Of a stretch of 24,039 bases of DNA, positions 9,396 through 23,809 are shown piece by piece (the first letter of the stretch is position 1; the number at the start of each line of letters is the position of its first letter). The position numbers and the translations under genes were made by a program. The notes below the pieces were generated by a model, which was not told the origin of the DNA, did not search any database, and saw nothing but the letters and a program-made list of their open reading frames with translations. Source of the DNA: a virus. The stretch is taken from positions 1 to 24,039 of the IMG/VR virus record IMGVR_UViG_3300023235_000134; one strand, written 5' to 3'.

Positions 9396-12300
9396 ATGGC
9401 TACCGAAGATTTAGCACCACTTAATAGAACAACAGGTCTTGGCTCGGGGGTAGGCGTTACTGACTTCCATCAATCATTGAATGAGTTTGCATCAGAAGCT
9501 AATACGTTAGGCCAAATTGGCTCTAAGATTGCTCAAACAGCAGCTAATTCCTTTTCTGAAAAGATGGGGTATGAGTCAGGAGAAAACCCAACTGGCAACC
9601 TATTCCCTGCAATGACGGAAAGTGGCAAGCATTATGAGGCAGCTTATAAAGCCAGCGCTCAAGCATCTCTTGGTACAAAATTAAATAGCTTATTATCAGA
9701 AGGTCAGATTGAACTTGCTAAGCTACCCAAGTTAACGCCTGACGCTATACAGTCATTTAATGACAATATGCCAAAAGGGGCTCAGTCAATTTTTGACCTA
9801 GCACCAGATGACGTAAAAGTTTCTTTGAGAAAAAGCTTTGAAAACTCAATGACTCAGATTAACGGTAGCCTAAATACAAAAATGATATCTAGGCAAAGGA
9901 AAGCTGAGCACGATAACCAGATTGGGTCTGGGAATAGTGGCACATTAAATATTTATGACACTGCTATGTCGGGCGATATTTCCGGCGCAGCTGATGAGCT
10001 CCAATCATTAATGGAAAATAATCAGCGTAGCCTTGATGCTGGTCTGATAAGCCAAAAAGAACACGACGTAATTAATTCGCAAGCTTTATCGTCACTACAC
10101 AAGGGGCAGTATAATAACCTGCTTAGTGTTGCTCAATCCCAAGGGAAAGAAGATGAGTTTCTTTCTGCCTTAGCTGAAAACAAGCCTAATGAGCTTAATT
10201 ATCAGCAGTGGGAAGAGGTAAAGGGAAGTGTAATAAAGCAAAATAAAGCAGCCAGCTACTTAAGAAAAAGCGAACAGCAAGCTTTGATTGCCGCTTACAA
10301 AATCAAAGACGTTATAACGCCTGATAATGTGATAACGCTAAAAGATAAATTGACAGATACACAGTTTTACAAGTTCATGTATGACTATAAAGTCAAAAGC
10401 ATTGGCAGGATTCAAAAAGAAGACTCAAGACAAAATACAATGAAAGTTTGGAGCGACAGCAAAGGGTTCTCGGCGCTTTCAAATAAAGAAAAGTCCGAAG
10501 GATTAGCCGCTACAACCAAAAGCATACAAAAAAATATGGTTGACCCTGAGTCGGGCGCTCCACTTTACTCTGAAGACCAAGCGGAAAGGGCGGCTGTTAA
10601 AGCAGCGGGCGGCCCTATACCCTCTTATGTTGATGGCGTTGAGGCGCAGATGCTCTCAGGAAATGGCGAGCAAATGACGATGGCTGTAGAAGCTTATGAG
10701 GATATAAATAGAAATCATCCTAATAATCTACCTTTATCTACCAGAGCCAAAGCTACCATGCTAGCGTTTACAGACAGGCTCCAAAAAACGGGTGAGTCAA
10801 ATTTAGCAGCTCAGGAAGCAAGTCAAATAATTAGCAATAAAAGCAGTGAGCAATTAGAATTTGCAGCTAAAATGACGGCTGACTATGGCAAAACTAATTT
10901 CAAAACAAGCGCCATGGTAATGAAGTTTGCGAAAAATCTAAATGGCATCAATCTTAACGAGCTTCAGTCAGAATACGAATACGCTTATGAAGCAAAAAGA
11001 CGGTTTAATGAGAACTTATCTCTGACAATGAGTGAATCCAGCGCCAAGAAGCTAACGCAAGAAGAAATGGCAAGCCTTTATGGGCATACAAATGTAAATG
11101 GCAAAAAACAGTTAGTAAAGTTCCCTATCGAACGCACTGTTAACATGCCAGAAACCAAATCATCTTCAGCTATTATTAATTCAGATATCGCAGCACAGTT
11201 AAAAGCTCAGTATGCAGAAACTAACCGACTCTATGATGAAATAGGCGAAAACGGACAGAGAAAATCTCCTTTTTATTTTAGAATAACCAATGAGCCAGAT
11301 ATTCAAGCCGCTATGGAAGCCTCTAAGAATTTAGAAAGCCTTGATTCATTAGACCCAGATGAAGGCAAATACTACTCCGAGCTAAAGAAAAACATGAAAG
11401 CGCTTAATGATTTTAACGACTTTAAGCAAATAGAATTAGAGCAAGTTTATCCTGATGGAACCTCATATAAGCATGTTATATCGGCTAAAGCCGGGCTATT
11501 AATGACCAAGAATGACGACCCATCAAATCCAACCATCCATGGGTACGACTTACTATCTACGCAAGAAGGCGGCGGAACTGGCCCTATTCACGGCTCTAAC
11601 CAAGAAACAATAAATGGCTTTAAATATCACCCAAGCCAGGAAAGATTAGGTCAGGTATTTTTTGAGCTTAATAAACATCCTGAGCTTATCGGTGATTCAA
11701 TTCAAGAAAAATTTGAAGAGTTCAGTAAATCTAATGATGCTAAGGAAGAATTCCTAAAAGACGCCACATTCTCTATGGTTGATCCATTTACAGCCATGGC
11801 AGTTAGAAATGAAGTTGAAGCTAGGGCCAAAGCAACGCCTTCGAAAGCAGCGACTAATGAAGAGAGTGCCGGGAAAACTGATAAATTTAACTTGGCATTA
11901 AAAGTTAAAGCTACTGCGCCGGAAGCTACAAAAGCATACTCCAAAGTAATAGAAAATAATACCAAATTGCTAGACAGCTATGGCATTAACAACGAGCGAA
12001 GGATGAATTATTTTGTCGCTCAAATAGCACATGAGAGTGATGGGTTCAGGGCTACCGTAGAAAAAATAAGTAATGACAAAGCCGAGGCAAAATATGGGAA
12101 CAAATCCTCTATAGGCCGAAAGCTAGGGAATACTCAGCCAGGCGATGGCGCAAAATATAAAGGTCGTGGGTTAATTCAGCTAACTGGTAGGGGAAATTAT
12201 AAGACTATTGGAGATATGATTGGCGTTGACCTAATTAATAACCCAGAAAAAGCAGAAAACCCATTAGTAGCGCTAAAAGTTGCGGCCGCATTTTGGGAGT

Positions 12301-12437
12301 CAAGAGGCTTGAATAAGCTTGCAGATGAAAAAAAATACACTGAGATAACTAGGTTAATTTCAGGCGGAAGCACAGGGCTACAACAAAGAAAAACTAGACT
12401 TGCTAGAATTGAAGGGGTTAAAAATGGCAGAAGATAA
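9396..12437 (+). CDS. Internal virion (ejection) protein with C-terminal GH19-type lysozyme domain
   Basis: The 1013-residue product occupies the place of T7 gp15. Residues 1 to about 830 are helical, Gln/Asn/Lys-rich, without Cys, as in internal core proteins that form the ejection channel. From about residue 845 a GH19 (chitinase/lysozyme) domain follows: YFVAQIAHESDGFRATVEKI, with Glu880 in the HES motif as the probable catalytic acid, then a YGNKSSIGRKLGNTQPGDG stretch, KYKGRGLIQLTGRGNY (strong GH19 signature KY.GRG.iQlTGr.NY), NPEKAENPLVALKVAAAFW, and ISGGSTGLQQRKTR at the end. GH19 enzymes cut peptidoglycan or chitin glycan chains; here it would open the cell wall during genome entry. 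Its end overlaps the next gene by 14 bases. AGGAAA precedes the ATG. Confidence 0.88.
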   Translation: MATEDLAPLNRTTGLGSGVGVTDFHQSLNEFASEANTLGQIGSKIAQTAANSFSEKMGYESGENPTGNLFPAMTESGKHYEAAYKASAQASLGTKLNSLLSEGQIELAKLPKLTPDAIQSFNDNMPKGAQSIFDLAPDDVKVSLRKSFENSMTQINGSLNTKMISRQRKAEHDNQIGSGNSGTLNIYDTAMSGDISGAADELQSLMENNQRSLDAGLISQKEHDVINSQALSSLHKGQYNNLLSVAQSQGKEDEFLSALAENKPNELNYQQWEEVKGSVIKQNKAASYLRKSEQQALIAAYKIKDVITPDNVITLKDKLTDTQFYKFMYDYKVKSIGRIQKEDSRQNTMKVWSDSKGFSALSNKEKSEGLAATTKSIQKNMVDPESGAPLYSEDQAERAAVKAAGGPIPSYVDGVEAQMLSGNGEQMTMAVEAYEDINRNHPNNLPLSTRAKATMLAFTDRLQKTGESNLAAQEASQIISNKSSEQLEFAAKMTADYGKTNFKTSAMVMKFAKNLNGINLNELQSEYEYAYEAKRRFNENLSLTMSESSAKKLTQEEMASLYGHTNVNGKKQLVKFPIERTVNMPETKSSSAIINSDIAAQLKAQYAETNRLYDEIGENGQRKSPFYFRITNEPDIQAAMEASKNLESLDSLDPDEGKYYSELKKNMKALNDFNDFKQIELEQVYPDGTSYKHVISAKAGLLMTKNDDPSNPTIHGYDLLSTQEGGGTGPIHGSNQETINGFKYHPSQERLGQVFFELNKHPELIGDSIQEKFEEFSKSNDAKEEFLKDATFSMVDPFTAMAVRNEVEARAKATPSKAATNEESAGKTDKFNLALKVKATAPEATKAYSKVIENNTKLLDSYGINNERRMNYFVAQIAHESDGFRATVEKISNDKAEAKYGNKSSIGRKLGNTQPGDGAKYKGRGLIQLTGRGNYKTIGDMIGVDLINNPEKAENPLVALKVAAAFWESRGLNKLADEKKYTEITRLISGGSTGLQQRKTRLARIEGVKNGRR

Positions 12438-16228: not shown

Positions 16229-18586
16229 ATGAGCATAGTTATAAATGACATACTACCATTAGACCAGTTTACAGCCTCAGCAAGCCAAACTGTTTTTAGT
16301 GTAACCTGGACTGTAGATGAGACGACAGATGTTGTTGTTTATGCTAGAGCCTCAGGCACAGAATCCGATGATGCAACCGACATAGTAACAAGTGGGTACA
16401 CAGTTACTTTGGTCGGCGGTACCGAGGCTGTTAGAGTCACTTTTGATTCAGGTAGAACCGTGGGAGATATCATAACAATCACTCGCGCTACACCAGCCAC
16501 CAGAGATAATCTTTATATAAACACTAACTTTACCCCTTCAATGCTCAACGGTGACTTTAAGCGATTAGTCCTAATTGAACAGCAAAACCAAGTGCTTAAA
16601 GATGCGTTAGGGCCAAGGTACAATATATCATCTACCTTAAATGGTACTGTCGATACCATACTACCTATATTGGGTGCAGACCAAACCTGGGTTAAAAATA
16701 CTGCCGATACTGCTATTGTGGCTTCAGATTTTCCTTCAGTAGGCGCAGCTCCTTTGGATGCAACATACCTACTTCAAATTGCTGATAGCGACCTCCCTAA
16801 TGCTCAAGATATTGGCTCACTAACTAGTGGGATTTTAGTTGGAACCACTACTACAGGTGTTGTTCTTTCAAGAGAATTAACTGGAACTTCAGAACAGATA
16901 GATGTTACGTATGGCGACGGAATTAGCGGCGACCCAACGATTTCATTGACTGACAACTTAACAATGCCTGGCATCTCTCACTTCTACCCACCGCAAGGAA
17001 CTACCGCTGAAAGGCCGGCGTCACCACTCGATGGGATGGTTAGATATAACACAACTTTAGGCGCGCTTGAAGTTTATGAGTCCAGTGCTTGGGACCCTTT
17101 AAGTGGCGGCGTAGTTGATACTGTGACAGGGACAACAAACCAAGTTGACGTTGATAGTACAGATGGGGCAAACCCTATTGTGTCTTTATCTTCAACAGCT
17201 GATATACCTGGGACCTTCACGATTCAAAGTACAACAGCAATTGACTCAATCATTGACGATGACACTATGGCCACAGCAAGCGCCACTAACGTTCCTACCG
17301 CTGAGTCTGTGGTAGCTTATGTTTCAACCGCAGCCGTAGCGGCAGGTGGAAGCACGACGCAGGTTCAATATAACAATGCTGGGACACTAGGTGGTGACTC
17401 TGGATTTACTACAGATGGCGCGGGAAGTTTAACTGTTACAGGTGATTTATCTGTTGATAATATTAATCTTGATGCTAATACAATTTCTATCACTGACACC
17501 AACGGCGACTTAAACCTAGCAGCTAATGGAACAGGCGACATTAAAACAAATGATTTCGATTTAATCTGCGGCGACCCAGGAACCGAAGCCAGTGGTATAA
17601 ATATTAATGGAGTTACTTATGATTCGGTTTTTAAAGTAAGTAATATCGACGGAGGGAATGAAGCGCAATTTATTATGCATCGACACTCTACTACTTTACA
17701 GCCTTTATTAATTGGCTCAAGAAGTAATAGTGATGATACTAGCCATTCGCCCGTCACCTCAGGTCAGTCCTTGTTTTCAATATACGCCGCAGGCTGGACG
17801 GCATCACATTATGATTTATTTGGCGCCATTGATATATCCGTCGACACCACCGGCACAGTCAGTGCAACAAGCTCTCCAGGAAGAATGAGATTTCAAGTAA
17901 CGCCTGAAAGTTCGAACACCCCTGTAACTTGGCTTACTGCTACTAACGATGGAAGCGCTGCTTTTGCCGGGGATGTTACGATTGGTTCAGGTTCTAGCAC
18001 ACTTTTATTAAATTCTAGCACCGCAATTGACGGCGTAATTGATGATGACACAATGGCTACAGCAAGCGCGACTAATGTCCCAACGGCTGAATCAGTTGTC
18101 TCATATGTAACGACTAGAACACCCACTTTAACTAATGGTCAGCTATGGATTGGTGATACAGGCAATGAAGCAACCGCGTCAACTTTAACCGCGGGAACAG
18201 GTGTTACTATTGTTAATACTGCCGGCACTATCACCCTCAGTAGTGTAGGTGGCGGGTACAGCTGGACTGAGGTTACAGGCACAACCCAAGCAATGTCCTC
18301 GAATAATGGATATATATTAAACAATGTTGCTCTTATCACTGCAACCCTGCCAGCTACAGCCTCGGTTGGAGACACGTTCATTCTACAAGGAAAAGGGGCT
18401 GGACTTTATAAAATAGCTCAAAACGCAAGCCAAACAATTCACTTTGGTTCTAGCGACACAACAACAGGAACAGGTGGGTCTCTAACAGCTACGAATCAGT
18501 ATGACTCTATAGAGTTAATTTGTATCACCGAAAACTCTGACTTTGCTGTATTGACGGGTAGCCAGGGGTCGTACACAGTTGCTTAA
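16229..18586 (+). CDS. Tail fibre protein with T7 gp17-like N-terminal attachment domain
   Basis: This 785-residue protein opens with a domain of about 135 residues like the T7 gp17 N-terminus: TASASQTVFSVTWTVDETTD, then IVTSGYTVTLVGGTEAVRVT and TITRATPATRDNLYINTNFT (..vTitR.tp..r...y......). That part joins the fibre to the tail. The shaft is modular: SPLDGMVRYNTTLGALEVYE (a widespread phage fibre motif), two copies of the ID(D)DDTMATASAT module (residues 336-365 and 598-627), and NTISITDTNGDLNLAANGTG (triple-beta shaft text). The C-terminal 130 residues probably form the tip or receptor contact. There is no chaperone or enzyme domain recognised. Its stop is 26 bases before a second fibre gene carrying the same repeated module, suggesting related origin. 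Confidence 0.85.
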   Translation: MSIVINDILPLDQFTASASQTVFSVTWTVDETTDVVVYARASGTESDDATDIVTSGYTVTLVGGTEAVRVTFDSGRTVGDIITITRATPATRDNLYINTNFTPSMLNGDFKRLVLIEQQNQVLKDALGPRYNISSTLNGTVDTILPILGADQTWVKNTADTAIVASDFPSVGAAPLDATYLLQIADSDLPNAQDIGSLTSGILVGTTTTGVVLSRELTGTSEQIDVTYGDGISGDPTISLTDNLTMPGISHFYPPQGTTAERPASPLDGMVRYNTTLGALEVYESSAWDPLSGGVVDTVTGTTNQVDVDSTDGANPIVSLSSTADIPGTFTIQSTTAIDSIIDDDTMATASATNVPTAESVVAYVSTAAVAAGGSTTQVQYNNAGTLGGDSGFTTDGAGSLTVTGDLSVDNINLDANTISITDTNGDLNLAANGTGDIKTNDFDLICGDPGTEASGININGVTYDSVFKVSNIDGGNEAQFIMHRHSTTLQPLLIGSRSNSDDTSHSPVTSGQSLFSIYAAGWTASHYDLFGAIDISVDTTGTVSATSSPGRMRFQVTPESSNTPVTWLTATNDGSAAFAGDVTIGSGSSTLLLNSSTAIDGVIDDDTMATASATNVPTAESVVSYVTTRTPTLTNGQLWIGDTGNEATASTLTAGTGVTIVNTAGTITLSSVGGGYSWTEVTGTTQAMSSNNGYILNNVALITATLPATASVGDTFILQGKGAGLYKIAQNASQTIHFGSSDTTTGTGGSLTATNQYDSIELICITENSDFAVLTGSQGSYTVA
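17234..17323 (+). repeat. DDDTMATASAT module, copy 1
   Basis: A 30-codon module (residues 336-365 of the large fibre) centred on IIDDDTMATASATNVPTAES. It matches copy 2 at 27 of 30 residues, while 21 of 90 bases differ, mostly at synonymous third positions. The protein sequence is therefore kept by selection and the duplication is old. Confidence 0.9.
18020..18109 (+). repeat. DDDTMATASAT module, copy 2
   Basis: The second 30-codon copy (residues 598-627 of the large fibre), differing from copy 1 only at Ser/Gly, Ile/Val and Ala/Ser positions. It ends shortly before the C-terminal tip region. Confidence 0.9.
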
Positions 18587-18612: not shown

Positions 18613-19239
18613 ATGGCCACAAATAATAGCATAAATCTTTCGCTTTCTGGGCAGACCGGTACGGGAAGTTTAGTCGGAAGTAATACTCCGACCCTAGTAG
18701 CCCCTTCGATTGGCGCTGCAACAGGAGCGAGCATTAACTTAGGCTCATCAACCACTATAGATGGCTTTATAGATGACGATACAATGGCAACTGCAAGCGC
18801 GACGACTGGCGCAACTAGTGAATCTATAAAGTCGTATGTGGATGCTAACACTGCTACGGCTTTGCAAAACTGGACCCCAGTCCCTAAAGGCTCATCAACC
18901 GCAGGAAGCCCTTCCGGCACATTTTCCGGGCAGTATTTAGAGACAGCAGGGCAAGTGTTTATCACGGGGAAAATAGTTTTTTCTGACCTAGATACTATGG
19001 CAGGAAATTTTCAAATAGGTGGCCTTCCTGTTACAGCTAGCACCTCGTCAACTCACAGGGCTGGCATAGTAGTATCATTTAGAAATAACTTTACTAATGA
19101 TTACGTAATGTGTGGTTACACAAACGCGTCCGACACTATTGGTATACTAAGAGCCGATATAGATAATACCACTATAGGTATTGCTGACTTAAGCGCAACC
19201 TCCAATTTATATTTTTCAATGTGGTACATCAAAGCATAA
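18613..19239 (+). CDS. Second tail fibre / receptor-binding module protein
   Basis: This 208-residue protein follows the large fibre by 26 bases, with AAGGATT as ribosome site. The N-terminal half has fibre-shaft text (QTGTGSLVGSNTPTLVAPSI and GAATGASINLGSSTTIDG) and a third copy of the DDDTMATASAT module at residues 47-76. The C-terminal half, from about residue 95, reads FSGQYLETAGQVFITGKIVF and FQIGGLPVTASTSSTHRAGI, ending in FSMWYIKA, a beta-rich domain like those used as exchangeable receptor-binding tips. It has no T7-type attachment domain, so it presumably docks onto the larger fibre through the shared shaft module. A separated distal fibre subunit is the likely role; an alternative is that it is a remnant of a duplicated fibre C-terminus. 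Confidence 0.68.
   Translation: MATNNSINLSLSGQTGTGSLVGSNTPTLVAPSIGAATGASINLGSSTTIDGFIDDDTMATASATTGATSESIKSYVDANTATALQNWTPVPKGSSTAGSPSGTFSGQYLETAGQVFITGKIVFSDLDTMAGNFQIGGLPVTASTSSTHRAGIVVSFRNNFTNDYVMCGYTNASDTIGILRADIDNTTIGIADLSATSNLYFSMWYIKA
18751..18840 (+). repeat. DDDTMATASAT module, copy 3 (in the second fibre gene)
   Basis: The third 30-codon copy, residues 47-76 of the 208-residue fibre, matches copy 2 at 22 of 30 residues. The core FIDDDTMATASAT is kept, while the following NVPTAES is replaced by TGATSES. Confidence 0.88.
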
Positions 19240-19248
19240 GGAATAAAC

Positions 19249-19524
19249 ATGACAACTGAATTAAAATATGAGCTTTCCGAGTTCAATTTAAGTAAAAAAA
19301 ATATGACCGTGCAAGTGCGGATAGATTGTGTTGTATATGAGGGGGGTGTCGAGGCTATGCGAAAGCAAAAATCTACACGTAGCTTTATGCCTGGGCGATA
19401 TGATGAGATTTCTAACTTTGTAGGTGATATTGATATAGCTAAAGAAGTTGCTTATTTGCAATCTGTGTGGACAGACGAGGTTGTTGAAAAGTACACAGTC
19501 TTAAACACTGTAAATGACGAATGA
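19249..19524 (+). CDS. Small hypothetical protein of the fibre cluster
   Basis: This 91-residue protein starts 10 bases after the second fibre gene, behind AAGGAA. It contains beta-prone text at residues 18-33 (NMTVQVRIDCVVYEGGVE), then STRSFMPGRYDEISNFVGD and an ending YLQSVWTDEVVEKYTVLN. The VRTFxPGxxDE and AYxxSxWTxEV patterns look conserved in small genes next to phage fibre genes, but I know no assigned function. It has one Cys and no membrane segment. A fibre chaperone, fibre-bound minor protein or lysis-timing factor would all be guesses; the first two fit the location best. Confidence 0.65.
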   Translation: MTTELKYELSEFNLSKKNMTVQVRIDCVVYEGGVEAMRKQKSTRSFMPGRYDEISNFVGDIDIAKEVAYLQSVWTDEVVEKYTVLNTVNDE

Positions 19525-19584
19525 ATTAAGCAATAATTAGCATAATAAAAACTGGATGCGCCATTACTAAAAAAGGATGTATTT

Positions 19585-19686
19585 ATGAATAAATTAAATT
19601 TAATTCGATGGATTACTATCATAGTTCTTTTTGTTGTCGGTTTCGGTGCGTTTCTCTATACTAAAAAACCAGATATCTTAAAATGA
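19585..19686 (+). CDS. 33-residue single-span membrane protein
   Basis: A small gene with a good ribosome site (AAAGGATG, 19572-19579) and ATG at 19585. The product starts MNKLNLIRW, has a membrane segment at about residues 9-25 (ITIIVLFVVGFGAFLYT), and ends KKPDILK, giving N-in/C-out or dual topology with one positive end at each side. Residues 19-30 (GFGAFLYTKKPD) match residues 21-32 of the 58-residue protein at 21881 (GFGAFFFTGKPD) at 9 of 12 positions, while nearly all matching codons differ at their third base. That shows real protein-level kinship and supports it being expressed. Its stop overlaps the ATG of the next frame (ATGA). Holin-like or holin-modulating function is inference only. 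Confidence 0.6.
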   Translation: MNKLNLIRWITIIVLFVVGFGAFLYTKKPDILK

Positions 19687-19754
19687 AAGAGCTTTTTCTG
19701 TTTGAAGCAAAAAGAGCATTACGTGTATTAGCACGAAATGGTTTTAGGCAGTAA
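19683..19754 (+). CDS. 23-residue basic peptide, ATGA-coupled
   Basis: A 23-codon frame starts at ATG 19683, overlapping the preceding stop codon as ATGA. It begins MKELFLFEAKRALRVLARNG and is an amphipathic basic helix. There is no independent ribosome site other than the coupling; AT-rich surroundings make a chance frame possible. No family is known. Confidence 0.3.
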   Translation: MKELFLFEAKRALRVLARNGFRQ

Positions 19755-19796
19755 ACTAGTTGTACATTAAACGAAATAGAGTAAAAGGAAATTATT

Positions 19797-19979
19797 ATGG
19801 CTATACAAGCAATAGCGCCACTTTTTTATATACCATTTGAAAAGCTTGAGCAGACGTTTACTTATTCAGGCGGATTTATTTCATCTATTACTTCCGAATA
19901 TGAAGACGTTACTTACGTGCAAACATTTACTAATGATGGAACATACATCACAAACATTACCAAGTGGGTGGCGCAATGA
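19797..19979 (+). CDS. Small fibre-associated protein
   Basis: This 60-residue product begins at ATG 19797 behind AAAAGGAA. It is aromatic-rich and beta-prone: EQTFTYSGGFISSITSEYED, then YVQTFTNDGTYITNITKWVA. The pattern YVQTFTNDGTxITxIxxWVxQ recurs in short proteins and fibre C-termini of phages and looks like a beta-strand-turn repeat (two similar halves: FTYSGGFISSIT and FTNDGTYITNIT). Its stop codon overlaps the next ATG (ATGA), so it is translated together with the beta-roll fibre protein downstream. It may be a small virion component bound to that fibre; the function is not known. Confidence 0.68.
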   Translation: MAIQAIAPLFYIPFEKLEQTFTYSGGFISSITSEYEDVTYVQTFTNDGTYITNITKWVAQ

Positions 19980-21133
19980 GCTCAAATACAAATGACTCAA
20001 CATCTATATCTGCCTCAGAGTTTTTAAAATGGCTCAAAGTCTTTAATATATCCTCTGGAGGCGGATCCGGAAGCGGAACGGTAAGCACAGGAACTGAAAA
20101 CGAAGTTGCTATTTATGCAGCTAATGGGACAACAGTTAGCGGGTTAACTACTGCTAACGATGGCGTTCTAGTCACTTCGGGCGCTGGCGTCCCTAGTATA
20201 AGCTCAACGCTACCTGCAGGTATTTCAGCAACAAACATGAGCTTAACTACGCCTAACCTTGGAACGCCATCCGCAGGAACAATGACAAACGTTACCGGCC
20301 TACCCTTAACGACCGGCGTAACAGGCGTTCTTCCAGTCGCAAATGGCGGCACTAACCTATCGGCAACCACAGCCAATCAAATACTTTATAGTTCGGCTAC
20401 TGATACATTGGCAGGATTAACCACTGCAAACGATGGTCTACTTGTAACCAGCGCCACAGGCGTTCCTAGCATCGGAAATGCTATTGGTGCGGACATTACG
20501 GTAAATTCAATATATTTCGGTGTTGGAAACTCAGGCACTGCAACTAATATTTGCGTCGGTACTTACTCAGGGGGTTCTGCTACTGGTACCAGGAACTTAT
20601 TAATCGGAGATTCGTCAGGTATCGCCCTAACAACAGCAAATAATAACGTTGCAATTGGATCGAGTGCTTTACTTTCTGCAAATACTGGGTCAAACAATAT
20701 GTCCATAGGGACTTACTCTCTAATAAATTTAACTACTGGCGTTGCCAATGTAGGGGTTGGTCATTCGTGTTTCCCTTCTTTAAATTCTGGGGGTGATAAT
20801 ATCGGATTTGGTCGAGAAGCGGGTACGGGAATTGGCGCAGACCAAGTGGCCTTAACAAGTGGGTCAAAAAATGTATTTATAGGATATCGAGCATCTTCGG
20901 ATTCCGCTACATCGTCAGGAACAATTGCAATCGGTGCAACGTCATCCGCGGAATCATCGACGGGCGCAACATCGGGCGACGACGGTTCAGGCATTGCTAT
21001 TGGGTCGTCCACTTTTCCTGTAGGATTTAGGGGTGATGGGTCTATTTACCCAAGCGCAGGAACCAGTGCAGGGTATTTACGTGTTAAAATTAATGGCACA
21101 AATTACAAAATATTACTAATGGCTGACGCTTAA
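19976..21133 (+). CDS. Fibre protein with YadA-head-like beta-roll repeats
   Basis: I chose ATG 19976, which overlaps the previous stop codon (ATGA), giving 385 residues. Residues 30-36 are a Gly/Ser linker. A 19-residue repeat LTTANDGVLVTSGAGVPSI / LTTANDGLLVTSATGVPSI occurs at 57-75 and 148-166, bracketing NLGTPSAGTMTNVTGLPLTT and VTGVLPVANGGTN, which are common phage fibre motifs. Residues about 215-350 are an array of NVAIGSSAL/NMSIGTYSL/NVGVGHSCF/NVFIGYRAS/TIAIGATSS units, spaced like the left-handed beta-roll of trimeric adhesin heads. The end, AGYLRVKINGTNYKILLMAD, is a frequent phage tail protein terminus. The protein is probably a trimeric second fibre or spike. No T7-type attachment domain is present. 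Confidence 0.78.
   Translation: MSSNTNDSTSISASEFLKWLKVFNISSGGGSGSGTVSTGTENEVAIYAANGTTVSGLTTANDGVLVTSGAGVPSISSTLPAGISATNMSLTTPNLGTPSAGTMTNVTGLPLTTGVTGVLPVANGGTNLSATTANQILYSSATDTLAGLTTANDGLLVTSATGVPSIGNAIGADITVNSIYFGVGNSGTATNICVGTYSGGSATGTRNLLIGDSSGIALTTANNNVAIGSSALLSANTGSNNMSIGTYSLINLTTGVANVGVGHSCFPSLNSGGDNIGFGREAGTGIGADQVALTSGSKNVFIGYRASSDSATSSGTIAIGATSSAESSTGATSGDDGSGIAIGSSTFPVGFRGDGSIYPSAGTSAGYLRVKINGTNYKILLMADA
20144..20200 (+). repeat. LTTANDG repeat, copy 1
   Basis: A 19-codon unit (residues 57-75 of the beta-roll fibre) that recurs at 20417-20473 with 16 of 19 residues identical. Confidence 0.85.
20417..20473 (+). repeat. LTTANDG repeat, copy 2
   Basis: The second copy of the 19-codon unit (residues 148-166). 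Codons differ from copy 1 mainly at silent positions, so conservation is at the protein level. Confidence 0.85.
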
Positions 21134-21144
21134 GGAATTTAATT

Positions 21145-21492
21145 ATGGTTGATATAGTTTTTGACGGGTCTGTCTCTCTCGCGACGGTTATTGCAACAAA
21201 AGTTGATGGGACAGAGGCATCAAACGCAGTAACGGCAAGCGGCGGTGCTGGTGTTATCACAACTTCAGCGCTAACCACTGCGGCTGGCGGCACTTACGCA
21301 ATCACGTGGACCAACACACTGATTACTGCTACTTCAACAGCGGCTGTCACACTTCAAGGCGGAACAAATACAATAAAAAATATATCGTTTGAATTTATAC
21401 CAGGAAGTGGATCAGCAACGCTAACTATACATAATAATCATGCTTCAAGTTCATTAGATGGCACGGTTCTTATTGGGTACACAATTTTCTAA
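21145..21492 (+). CDS. Small beta-sandwich fibre/virion-surface protein
   Basis: This 115-residue protein begins 11 bases after the beta-roll fibre gene, behind TAAGGAA. It has almost no charged residues after position 25 and is built of beta-prone text: GVITTSALTTAAGGTYAITW, TATSTAAVTLQGGTNTIKNI, then SGSATLTIHNNHASSSLDGT and the ending IGYTIF. This arrangement recurs in small phage proteins and fibre C-terminal domains that form beta-sandwich knobs, so it is probably a tip or decoration of the fibre encoded upstream. It has no cysteines and no membrane segment. Assignment to virion structure is by composition, motif and neighbours. Confidence 0.65.
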   Translation: MVDIVFDGSVSLATVIATKVDGTEASNAVTASGGAGVITTSALTTAAGGTYAITWTNTLITATSTAAVTLQGGTNTIKNISFEFIPGSGSATLTIHNNHASSSLDGTVLIGYTIF

Positions 21493-21503
21493 AGGGGAAT
21501 AAA

Positions 21504-21701
21504 ATGTCATTTGTAAATGAAGAATTACCAGCAAGCATTAGTAAAATGTGCTGCCAAACAGGCAAGATTACGGTTGTTTATACTAATTTAGTTAAAGAAG
21601 ATGGCGTTTCCATCCTTGCTCAGTCAAAAGAAGTAGAAATGGTTTTAGAAGGTATGGATGAATGCCTAGCTAAAATCGCAAAAGCAATTTCAAGAGCATA
21701 A
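21504..21701 (+). CDS. Small hypothetical protein
   Basis: This 65-residue protein starts at ATG 21504 behind AAAGGGGA. It opens with FVNEELPASISKMCCQTGKI (two adjacent cysteines at 16-17), has a beta-prone KITVVYTNLVKEDGV segment, and ends in a helix DECLAKIAKAISRA. It has no membrane segment. Its central ITVVYTNLVKEDGVS text is loosely reminiscent of the middle of the 91-residue protein at 19249 (MTVQVRIDCVVYEGGVE), and both lie between a fibre gene and a small membrane protein gene. That similarity is weak and could be chance. No known family is recognised. Confidence 0.6.
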   Translation: MSFVNEELPASISKMCCQTGKITVVYTNLVKEDGVSILAQSKEVEMVLEGMDECLAKIAKAISRA

Positions 21702-21717
21702 ACTAATAGGAATCATT

Positions 21718-21861
21718 ATGAATTTAGAAAAATTAAAAGAGAAAATCGAAGAATTAGAAAAACGAAGAGAAGAAACAGCTCAATTACATCTTAAATTGTT
21801 AGGTGCTATTGAGGTTTTAGGTGCTTTAGCTAAAGAAGAACTTGAAGCTAAAGAAGATTAA
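21718..21861 (+). CDS. 47-residue coiled-coil protein
   Basis: A small gene behind TAGGAA with ATG at 21718 and TAA at 21859-21861. Residues 1-20 (MNLEKLKEKIEELEKRREET) form a clear heptad coiled coil with Leu/Ile at core positions; then LKLLGAIEVLGALAKEE forms a second helix, suggesting a helical hairpin. Short proteins of this design (MxLEKLKxxIxELExxR..., a second helix with GAI) are frequent near phage lysis and fibre genes, but no function is established to my knowledge. It has no membrane segment or cysteine. It may oligomerise or act as an adaptor for the adjacent membrane protein. Confidence 0.6.
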   Translation: MNLEKLKEKIEELEKRREETAQLHLKLLGAIEVLGALAKEELEAKED

Positions 21862-21880
21862 TTTGTATCCGGGGGCTAAT

Positions 21881-22057
21881 ATGAACATTAAAAATTTATT
21901 AAGTAAATCGATTATTACTATTGCGGTCGCCGGAGCAATTGGGTTTGGAGCTTTCTTTTTCACAGGAAAGCCAGACTCCCCTGTAGAGCAGACAGCCGAG
22001 GCAGTCCTTAGGGCTCACGGTATCGAAATAGACTTTTCTCCTGAGGGCGGCAAATAA
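21881..22057 (+). CDS. 58-residue single-span membrane protein
   Basis: I chose ATG 21881 (MNIKNLLSKS), which follows GGGGG; an in-frame ATG further left would overlap the coiled-coil gene. One membrane segment spans about residues 10-28 (SIITIAVAGAIGFGAFFFT), followed by a soluble tail, PDSPVEQTAEAVLRAHGIEI then DFSPEGG. Small podovirus proteins with a span followed by (D/N)SPVEExAExVxxxxxGxxxDxSP are familiar from lysis and packaging regions, but their role is not established. Residues 21-32 resemble those of the 33-residue protein at 19585. The stop overlaps the nuclease start (TAATG), so the two are coupled. A lysis-related function is a guess. Confidence 0.68.
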   Translation: MNIKNLLSKSIITIAVAGAIGFGAFFFTGKPDSPVEQTAEAVLRAHGIEIDFSPEGGK

Positions 22058-22458
22058 TGGCATGGGCCAAAACAGCGAAAGTATCAAAATTATATCCTGA
22101 AACGCTAACGCAAATCGCTATCGTTAAGTGGTTTAATCTTCAGTATCCACAACTGAAAGGACACTTAATTAAGATAGGGAATGGTGGTAAAAAGTCTGTG
22201 CAAGGGCACGTCCTTTCTAGGCGTATGGGCGAGATAGTGGGAGCATCAGACCTCTTTTTAGCCTACCCATCAAGTGGGTTTTGTGGGCTCTGGTTAGAGG
22301 TGAAGCCGGAAAAATTTAAAGCTAATAAAAGCAACTCAGCCCATATAAATCAGCAGCTTGATTTTATCGAAAGTATGCGCGAAGTCGGTTACGACGGTGA
22401 GATGGTGGTTGGGTCTAAAGAAGGTATTGAGGTTATTAAGTCGTATATGGCTAATTAG
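22057..22458 (+). CDS. VRR-NUC-type nuclease
   Basis: The 133-residue product has the marks of the VRR-NUC branch of PD-(D/E)XK nucleases. Around residues 38-65, KIGNGGKKSVQGHVLSRRMG leads to the catalytic Asp65 in GASDLFLAYP; Glu81 and Lys83 follow in LWLEVKPE; a QQLDFIESMREVGYDGEMVV stretch contains the expected Gln99/Gln100 and the terminal GYxGxVVxxxE segment. The size of about 100-140 residues is typical for free-standing phage VRR-NUC proteins. It cuts DNA, perhaps junctions or branched structures. It is translationally coupled to the 58-residue membrane protein and lies just before large terminase, so it may help resolve or trim concatemers before packaging. That link is inference. Confidence 0.85.
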   Translation: MAWAKTAKVSKLYPETLTQIAIVKWFNLQYPQLKGHLIKIGNGGKKSVQGHVLSRRMGEIVGASDLFLAYPSSGFCGLWLEVKPEKFKANKSNSAHINQQLDFIESMREVGYDGEMVVGSKEGIEVIKSYMAN

Positions 22459-22495: not shown

Positions 22496-23809
22496 ATGTA
22501 TGTTCAAATCCCCACTAGGGAAATAAAACTTTACCCTTATCAAGAAGAGATATTTAAAGCAGTCAATGGTGGTATGAATGCACTCATTGTGATTCATAGA
22601 AGAGCAGGCAAGGATGTTACATGTGTTCAACTTTGGCTAATGAGAGCACTGCAAAGAGTTGGGACTCATATATACCTTTTTCCTTTGGTTCGGCAGGCGA
22701 GGGAAGTTATATGGCAGGGCCTTATGTTTTCAGGGAAGTCATTCCTAAGCGTGATACCCAAGGAGCTTATAGCTAAAAAAAACGAAGCGCGAATGGAAAT
22801 CACTCTCATTAACGGTTCTAGGATGGTCTTAGGTGGCAGCAATCTATTTGATGCTTGGATGGGGAGTAATCCTTGTACGATTATATATTCAGAGTTTGCG
22901 CTACATAATCCACAGGCTCGCCAATATTTAAATCCTATTTTAGTTCAAAACAAAGGCATTGAGATTATTCAATCAACCCCAAGGGGCCTTAATCACTTGT
23001 ACGAATTGCTGCAAGTGGCCCAAGATAATCCTAAATACTTAACCAGGGTTTTATCGATTGACGATACCAGAGACAATAATGACGACCCAATTATTACAGC
23101 GGACATGATTGACGGCGCTAGAAAAATGGGTATGTCAGACGAGAAGATAAGACAAGAGTTTTACTGTGATTTCGAGGTGGGTAATGTGGGGTCGTATTTC
23201 ACACTTCAAATGACAGATATGAAAAATGAAGGGCGAATGACTCGACTTCCAGTTAATCCAAACCTGCCTTTAAATACTGCCTGGGATTTAGGCGGAACAG
23301 ATTCTACAGCATGTTGGGTTTTTCAGGTTGATGGGCAAAATATTAATTTACTTCAATTGATTGTCGGTAATGACCAAGGGCTTAAGTACTACCTTGACCA
23401 GGCCGAGAAAATAAGAGTTGGATATAACTGCCCATGGGGTCAGCACTTCATGCCACATGACGTTAAACAAAAACATCAAGGCTGGGAGCAGGCTGAATCC
23501 AGGTTAATGACAGCAAGAAGAGCAGGATGGTTCTTTACCGTCACTCCTAAGGTTGATATCGAGGATGGTATCGAGGCTATGAGATTTATTTTGCCTCGAG
23601 TCAGGATTAATATGCCGGATTGCGACCTTGGCGCGAGAGCGTTAAGGGAGTATCAGCGAGAATATGACGATGCCAATGCCTGCTTTAGGCAGAAGCCGCT
23701 TCATAACTGGGCCAGCCATATTGTTGATGCGTTTAGGTATTTAGCCTTAAATCATAAAAGACTTTACCAGGCACCCATGCCCATGACCAGCTACTCATAC
23801 TCAGACTAA
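22496..23809 (+). CDS. Terminase large subunit
   Basis: The 437-residue protein has an ATPase and a nuclease domain. The Walker A-like loop is HRRAGKDV (34-41), a known terminase variant with Asp in place of the usual Thr/Ser. Walker B is TIIYSEF (128-134), ending in catalytic Glu133. The coupling motif is STPRG (160-164). The RNase H-like nuclease follows: Asp264 in WDLGGTDST, Asp322 in PHDVK and Asp411 in HIVDAFRYLAL, the three metal ligands. It cleaves concatemers and drives ATP-powered packaging through the portal at 1436-3028. Length is typical of short podovirus/prophage-type large subunits. The ribosome site is weak (GAGTAAT), but no other in-frame ATG follows the upstream stop. Its partner small subunit is the gene at 451. 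Confidence 0.93.
   Translation: MYVQIPTREIKLYPYQEEIFKAVNGGMNALIVIHRRAGKDVTCVQLWLMRALQRVGTHIYLFPLVRQAREVIWQGLMFSGKSFLSVIPKELIAKKNEARMEITLINGSRMVLGGSNLFDAWMGSNPCTIIYSEFALHNPQARQYLNPILVQNKGIEIIQSTPRGLNHLYELLQVAQDNPKYLTRVLSIDDTRDNNDDPIITADMIDGARKMGMSDEKIRQEFYCDFEVGNVGSYFTLQMTDMKNEGRMTRLPVNPNLPLNTAWDLGGTDSTACWVFQVDGQNINLLQLIVGNDQGLKYYLDQAEKIRVGYNCPWGQHFMPHDVKQKHQGWEQAESRLMTARRAGWFFTVTPKVDIEDGIEAMRFILPRVRINMPDCDLGARALREYQREYDDANACFRQKPLHNWASHIVDAFRYLALNHKRLYQAPMPMTSYSYSD

Follow-up and report, generated by a model that had tools for sequence, protein, structure and literature searches.

Single-helix membrane proteins as candidate holins of environmental podoviruses, and a tail-less second member in one mosaic viral genome

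A 58-aa protein with one predicted transmembrane (TM) helix, encoded by an uncultivated virus of bacteria, belongs to a probably undescribed family of small lysis-cassette membrane proteins, and the same genome encodes a second, 33-aa member that ends directly after the helix. On balance, we lean towards the account in which the 58-aa protein is a holin-type component of a lysis cassette and the tail-less second member was derived by recombination. Judged from sequence comparisons, the tail-less copy looks like a by-product of genome mixing in one virus and not like a conserved two-protein switch.

The window, meaning the whole stretch of DNA that was analysed (24,039 nt; IMG/VR record IMGVR_UViG_3300023235_000134), comes from a podovirus-like genome, of which it forms a linear 24-kb fragment encoding a head-tail adaptor, a major head protein and tail proteins. 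Its relevant features are given below, with related loci cited by L-numbers.

11991..12308 (+): GH19-type domain (PF00182, E 1.7e-10) at the C-terminus of a 1013-aa virion protein (9396-12437)
19249..19524 (+): 91-aa protein with a weak match to phrog_6228, 91% identical to L052:252-521
19585..19686 (+): 33-aa tail-less single-TM family member, identified as an ORF and by the family HMM
19683..19754 (+): gene of the 23-aa peptide MKELFLFEAKRALRVLARNGFRQ, its ATG overlapping the stop codon of the 33-aa gene (ATGA)
19797..19979 (+): 60-aa protein, the right-hand neighbour kept in L052 (69% over 49 aa)
21504..21861 (+): 65-aa and 47-aa proteins, 61% and 38% identical to L052 counterparts, the last genes of the L052-like part
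21881..22057 (+): 58-aa full-length family member and holin candidate, with a TM helix at about residues 10-28 and a conserved tail at 32-55
22057..22458 (+): VRR-NUC-like nuclease (phrog_824, E 1e-19), with a 1-nt ATGG-type overlap with the stop codon of the 58-aa gene
22496..23809 (+): terminase large subunit (TerL; phrog_2, E 2e-25)

The GH19 domain, of the chitinase class I type, was the only muralytic domain detected by Pfam among the window proteins scanned, and PF00182 occurred in the window's virus alone among 17 records searched, the 16 others being without it. The 47-aa protein matched phrog_580 (E 1.8e-4). A scan for promoters and terminators gave nothing beyond chance. Stretches of 74-89 bases repeat at 76-78% identity within and between two fibre-like genes (17234-17322, 18020-18108 and 18751-18824).

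Both ORFs, which a preliminary description of this DNA had placed at 19585-19686 and 21881-22057, were confirmed together with their products. The 33-aa product is MNKLNLIRWITIIVLFVVGFGAFLYTKKPDILK, and its gene is preceded by the Shine-Dalgarno-like sequence AAAAGGA. For the longer gene, a TTG located 39 nt upstream would give 71 aa, but the ATG at 21881 was preferred because the relatives have 52-65 aa. Apart from these two, the window contains no well-formed small TM ORF; among such ORFs, the 58-aa one is hidden within its TTG-extended frame. The motif GFGAF..T.KPD, reported to be common to both proteins despite divergent codons, is indeed identical at 9 of 12 residues, with 10 of the 12 third positions changed and 8 of the 12 codons representing synonymous replacements. 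The shorter protein also lacks the 26-residue tail, as had been described.

Conservation at the protein level and common ancestry of the two copies, likewise proposed earlier, were supported by profile scores and shuffling. A tblastn search of the window with the 58-aa protein recovered the 33-aa site (E 8e-5), and a family HMM built without the window rows scored the 33-aa ORF at 28.5 bits (E 9e-8). The best unrelated ORF among 1902 hydrophobic ORFs reached 9.9 bits with the same HMM, and none of 5000 composition-preserving shuffles, performed freely or within three blocks (N-terminus, helix and C-terminus), attained the score of the 33-aa protein; thus the likeness is not a chance similarity of two membrane helices. 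The match spans HMM positions 5-33 (E 2.9e-9, or E 9e-8 in a larger set) and comprises the family helix with its invariant glycine, the flanking Lys/Arg residues and the subsequent Asp. The protein ends before the tail (EQxxExxLxxxGIxIDxS), and no tail remnant was found downstream of the gene in any frame.

Profile scans of IMG/VR collected about 33 loci of the family with 24 distinct viral sequences. In an alignment of 23 rows, G21, E36, Q37, E40, L43, G47, D51 and S53 were invariant. In general, the N-terminus varies and is usually basic; it is followed by a single hydrophobic helix that contains the invariant glycine, by an Asp that hardly varies and by a tail with the motif [VIL]EQxxExxLxxxGIdIDfS. 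AlphaFold2 predicted helices at residues 3-28 and 34-45 of the 58-aa protein with moderate confidence (mean pLDDT 74). The small size and at least one TM helix expected of a holin were found for the 58-aa family from both hydrophobicity and the model. Searches of Pfam, PHROGs and NCBIfam gave nothing significant, with no holin match for any of the 23 members, PADLOC and the PDB yielded no significant match, and the 58-aa protein had no significant counterpart in 50,697 deposited phages. An assignment to DUF5415 was rejected, the best match (E 6.6e-4) being below the cut-off of that family in the members shown and covering the tail only. In cellular genomes, one profile search found no member and another found a single metagenome-assembled contig (L087). 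On this contig, which is labelled Alphaproteobacteria, the gene of a 52-aa member overlaps (ATGA) a spanin-like gene for a protein with one TM helix, a lipoprotein-like gene lies upstream (L087:4367-5129), and the contig ends just past the locus.

The genetic context of the family points to lysis. An endolysin is encoded within about 2 kb of 17 of the 24 distinct viral members, and 13 of the 24 lie directly upstream of it, with gaps of 0-115 nt or small overlaps. The next gene encodes a PF00959 (Phage_lysozyme) enzyme in L046, L048, L051, L060, L070, L071, L072 and L076, and a PF08291 (Peptidase_M15_3) enzyme in L056, L064, L065, L067 and L073, these families being assigned by Pfam profile on representatives and otherwise by tblastn to those. 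The endolysin is within this distance, not directly adjacent, in four further loci, lying downstream in L052, L075 and L078 and upstream in L077; another gene separates the family member from the enzyme in L075 and L078. The two endolysin folds are unrelated and both of the soluble type, and with two unrelated enzymes and changed gene orders the neighbourhood is unlikely to reflect inheritance alone. Furthermore, the family member is usually the one well-formed small TM ORF near the enzyme, and no N-terminal hydrophobic segment was present in the six neighbouring endolysins that were checked. A lysis cassette beside an endolysin without its own export signal, as would be expected for a holin, is found in the family, not inside the window.

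Because endolysins of two unrelated folds adjoin the family, a lysis role of the long form, most simply as a holin, is well supported by context, and timed membrane permeabilisation with lethal action would be the candidate activity of the 58-aa family. The preliminary description had envisaged the short and long proteins as an effector and a modulator of lysis, for example a pinholin/antiholin-like pair; its lysis role stands for the long form, backed by the adjacent endolysins, and its conserved pair does not. A pinholin in the strict sense is unlikely, since the six endolysins checked did not show the N-terminal hydrophobic segment of a SAR endolysin and would need a hole that passes protein, as provided by a holin rather than a pinholin.

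In the window, no free endolysin adjoins the 58-aa gene in this part of the genome. Here and in L043, L049, L053 and L054, the member is followed instead by VRR-NUC or RusA and by terminase, and PF00959, PF08291 and PF00182 were absent from the parts of these four loci that were examined. In L055 and L074, the member lies among head genes and no endolysin was recognised. The L074 member (L074:5929-6138) is flanked by portal-like and scaffold-like ORFs and is encoded on the other strand from the head genes.

The position of the 58-aa gene recalls the late region of T7-like phages, in which the holin gp17.5 lies near the terminase; both have a small membrane protein among the late genes between the tail fibre and the terminase large subunit. 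However, the 58-aa family matched neither T7-type nor other holin families in Pfam, PHROGs and NCBIfam. In layout, it resembles the T4 holin T (class III, single TM, N-in/C-out), which likewise has one helix, a periplasmic C-terminal part and a soluble lysozyme partner. T4 holin T differs from the family in its much greater size and in having a globular domain in the periplasm and an amphipathic helix in the cytoplasm, and no sequence relation between them was detected with Pfam and PHROGs. The periplasmic domain of T4 holin T is dispensable for hole formation and thought to be regulatory (PMC12162936). Two holin-like proteins in one genome, as in the window's virus, also occur in N4 (gp62/gp63; PMC12642591) and in F1 mycobacteriophages (LysF1a/LysF1b; PMC13056207), where they are not described as mutual copies. 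The two proteins of N4 and of F1 have different layouts and are maintained together, whereas those of the window are paralogues paired in one virus only. The multi-holin cassettes of Gordonia phages also hold non-duplicated genes (PMC9671378).

Profile searches found exactly one family member in 29 of 30 records and two only in the window's virus. Tail-less relatives of the 33-aa protein were not found in the IMG/VR profile scans, including a search with a two-row alignment, and the one further contig that carries the 33-aa gene showed 100% identity across the 7933 bases that were compared. In L052, the place of the 33-aa gene is taken by a full-length 63-aa member, flanked by homologues of the 91-aa (91%) and 60-aa (69%) window proteins. 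The proposed conservation of the two proteins as an effector/modulator system across related phages, which would entail their co-occurrence in other phages and homologues of the 33-residue form, was thus not borne out; a modulator function local to this virus would still be compatible with these results.

Beyond its 63-aa gene, L052 continues with a lysozyme gene and its own VRR-NUC gene; at this place, the window carries the 58-aa gene and a VRR-NUC gene of another lineage. Of the VRR-NUC homologues, that of L052 scored above and that of L043 below the cut-off of PF08774. The genes from 18613 to 21861, except a 115-aa gene, best resemble L052, with identities of the left-part genes ranging from 38% to 95%. 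The window TerL is 58-62% identical to those of L004, L005, L031, L043, L049 and L053. Since the left genes are nearest to L052 and TerL is nearest to other lineages, the window is by sequence comparison a mosaic of an L052-like left part and a right part (58-aa gene, VRR-NUC and TerL) from another lineage. Each side carries one TM gene, the left one without a tail. The 8-kb right part had no match in deposited phages by megablast and none by tblastn; a Listeria match at E 6 was discarded as noise.

The nearest relative of the 33-aa protein is not the L052 member but the 55-aa member of L072 (57% over 30 residues). Between these two, dN was 0.34 and dS 1.38 over 30 codons; this sample is small, and selection on the L072 branch contributes to the values as well. 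The mean identity of the retained half to the family (0.36) falls within the range of intact members (0.17-0.37), and the start codon, the Shine-Dalgarno-like site and the helix are all intact. On these comparisons, the most fitting reading of the 33-aa gene is a second copy that was truncated but can still be translated and shows no decay in the half that it retains.

The 23-aa peptide encoded directly after the short copy has homologues at L052:527-601, L064:577-651, L065:643-717 and L072:3486-3560. The L072 copy, whose end diverges, was found independently by a profile not trained on it (E 2.6e-11). The 23-24-aa peptides follow the pattern LxEAxRxL......GFxQ, are below the usual gene-calling size and are usually ATGA-coupled to the preceding gene. 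In L064 and L072, the peptide start overlaps (ATGA) the end of whichever gene occupies the position of the 91-aa gene, and in L052 and L064 the full-length TM gene closely follows the peptide gene. The next gene in L072 (L072:3557-3757), joined to the peptide gene by a GTGA overlap, encodes a 66-aa protein that is coiled-coil-like at its N-terminus, has a TM anchor at its C-terminus and is possibly a further cassette member. We also considered the 23-aa stretch as the missing tail of the 33-aa gene, reached by a -1 frameshift. The combined length of 56 aa (33+23) is that of the family, and AAAAAA and TTAAAA runs occur just before the 33-aa stop codon. However, the peptide is unlike the tail motif in any frame and is a gene of its own in L052, L064, L065 and L072, whose family members are complete. 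Such a fusion is extremely improbable and was rejected, because L052 and L064 carry the separate peptide gene beside a complete TM gene.

In the account that we favor, the 58-aa protein would most simply be a single-helix holin. Its short basic N-terminus would be cytoplasmic and its conserved, mostly acidic tail of about 25 residues periplasmic, an N-in/C-out topology predicted from charge. On building up in the inner membrane, it would form oligomers and create a hole for the passage of a soluble endolysin. The 33-aa protein is a second member that stops directly behind the helix, and its C-terminal lysines leave its topology ambiguous. This short copy most likely originated when an L052-like left arm, which retains its TM gene behind the 91-aa gene, was fused to a right arm carrying another TM gene in front of VRR-NUC and terminase. 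If it is produced and active, the short form would most likely act by joining the hole of its full-length paralogue as a subunit that lacks the periplasmic, regulatory tail, thereby shifting the time of lysis, and it is at least as likely that the 33-aa gene is a relic on its way out.

As a decaying relic, the gene would have become redundant after recombination, been truncated where it meets the 23-aa peptide gene, and persisted because it is young or because it serves ATGA-coupled translation of the peptide. We regard this as a serious possibility, somewhat short of an even chance. It agrees with the presence of two members only in the window's virus, the lack of a tail-less form elsewhere, the full-length gene at the same place in L052 and a truncation exactly at the start of the conserved peptide gene, but not readily with a retained half as conserved as intact members, intact translation signals and a synonymous excess relative to L072. 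Those same signals, together with the shared helix motif at separate sites, would suit a working short/long pair in which the tail-less form acts as an antiholin or accelerator co-assembling with the 58-aa holin. The cassettes of N4 (PMC12642591) and F1 (PMC13056207) provide precedents for two holin-like proteins, and T4 holin T for a dispensable periplasmic domain (PMC12162936). Nevertheless, no other record contains both forms and the Gordonia cassettes are not built from duplicates (PMC9671378), and we consider a working pair rather doubtful.

Slightly less probable still is that the family, instead of being holins, has a different membrane role in the late cassette, for example as a spanin-like protein of the inner membrane or as an endolysin anchor. 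An N-in/C-out arrangement is also compatible with inner-membrane spanins, Rz-like matches were obtained that were weak and non-significant, and the cellular contig L087 has spanin-like neighbours upstream. However, the tail, at about 25 residues, is not long enough to cross the periplasm, an outer-membrane lipoprotein partner was seen neither embedded in nor next to the genes of the viral loci, and the family member is the main small TM ORF near the endolysins. More speculatively, and with a low probability, this could be a minimal-holin family with a regulatory periplasmic tail, in which the tail-less paralogue makes mixed holes that reset the lysis time and the coupled 23-24-aa peptide is a third lysis component.

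These very small candidate holins are missed by standard libraries and by deposited phage genomes, and the lysis cassettes of a set of environmental podoviruses could be annotated through the family. The tail-less copy represents a natural truncation of a candidate single-helix holin, which, even if it is a relic, would be useful for probing the function of the periplasmic tail.
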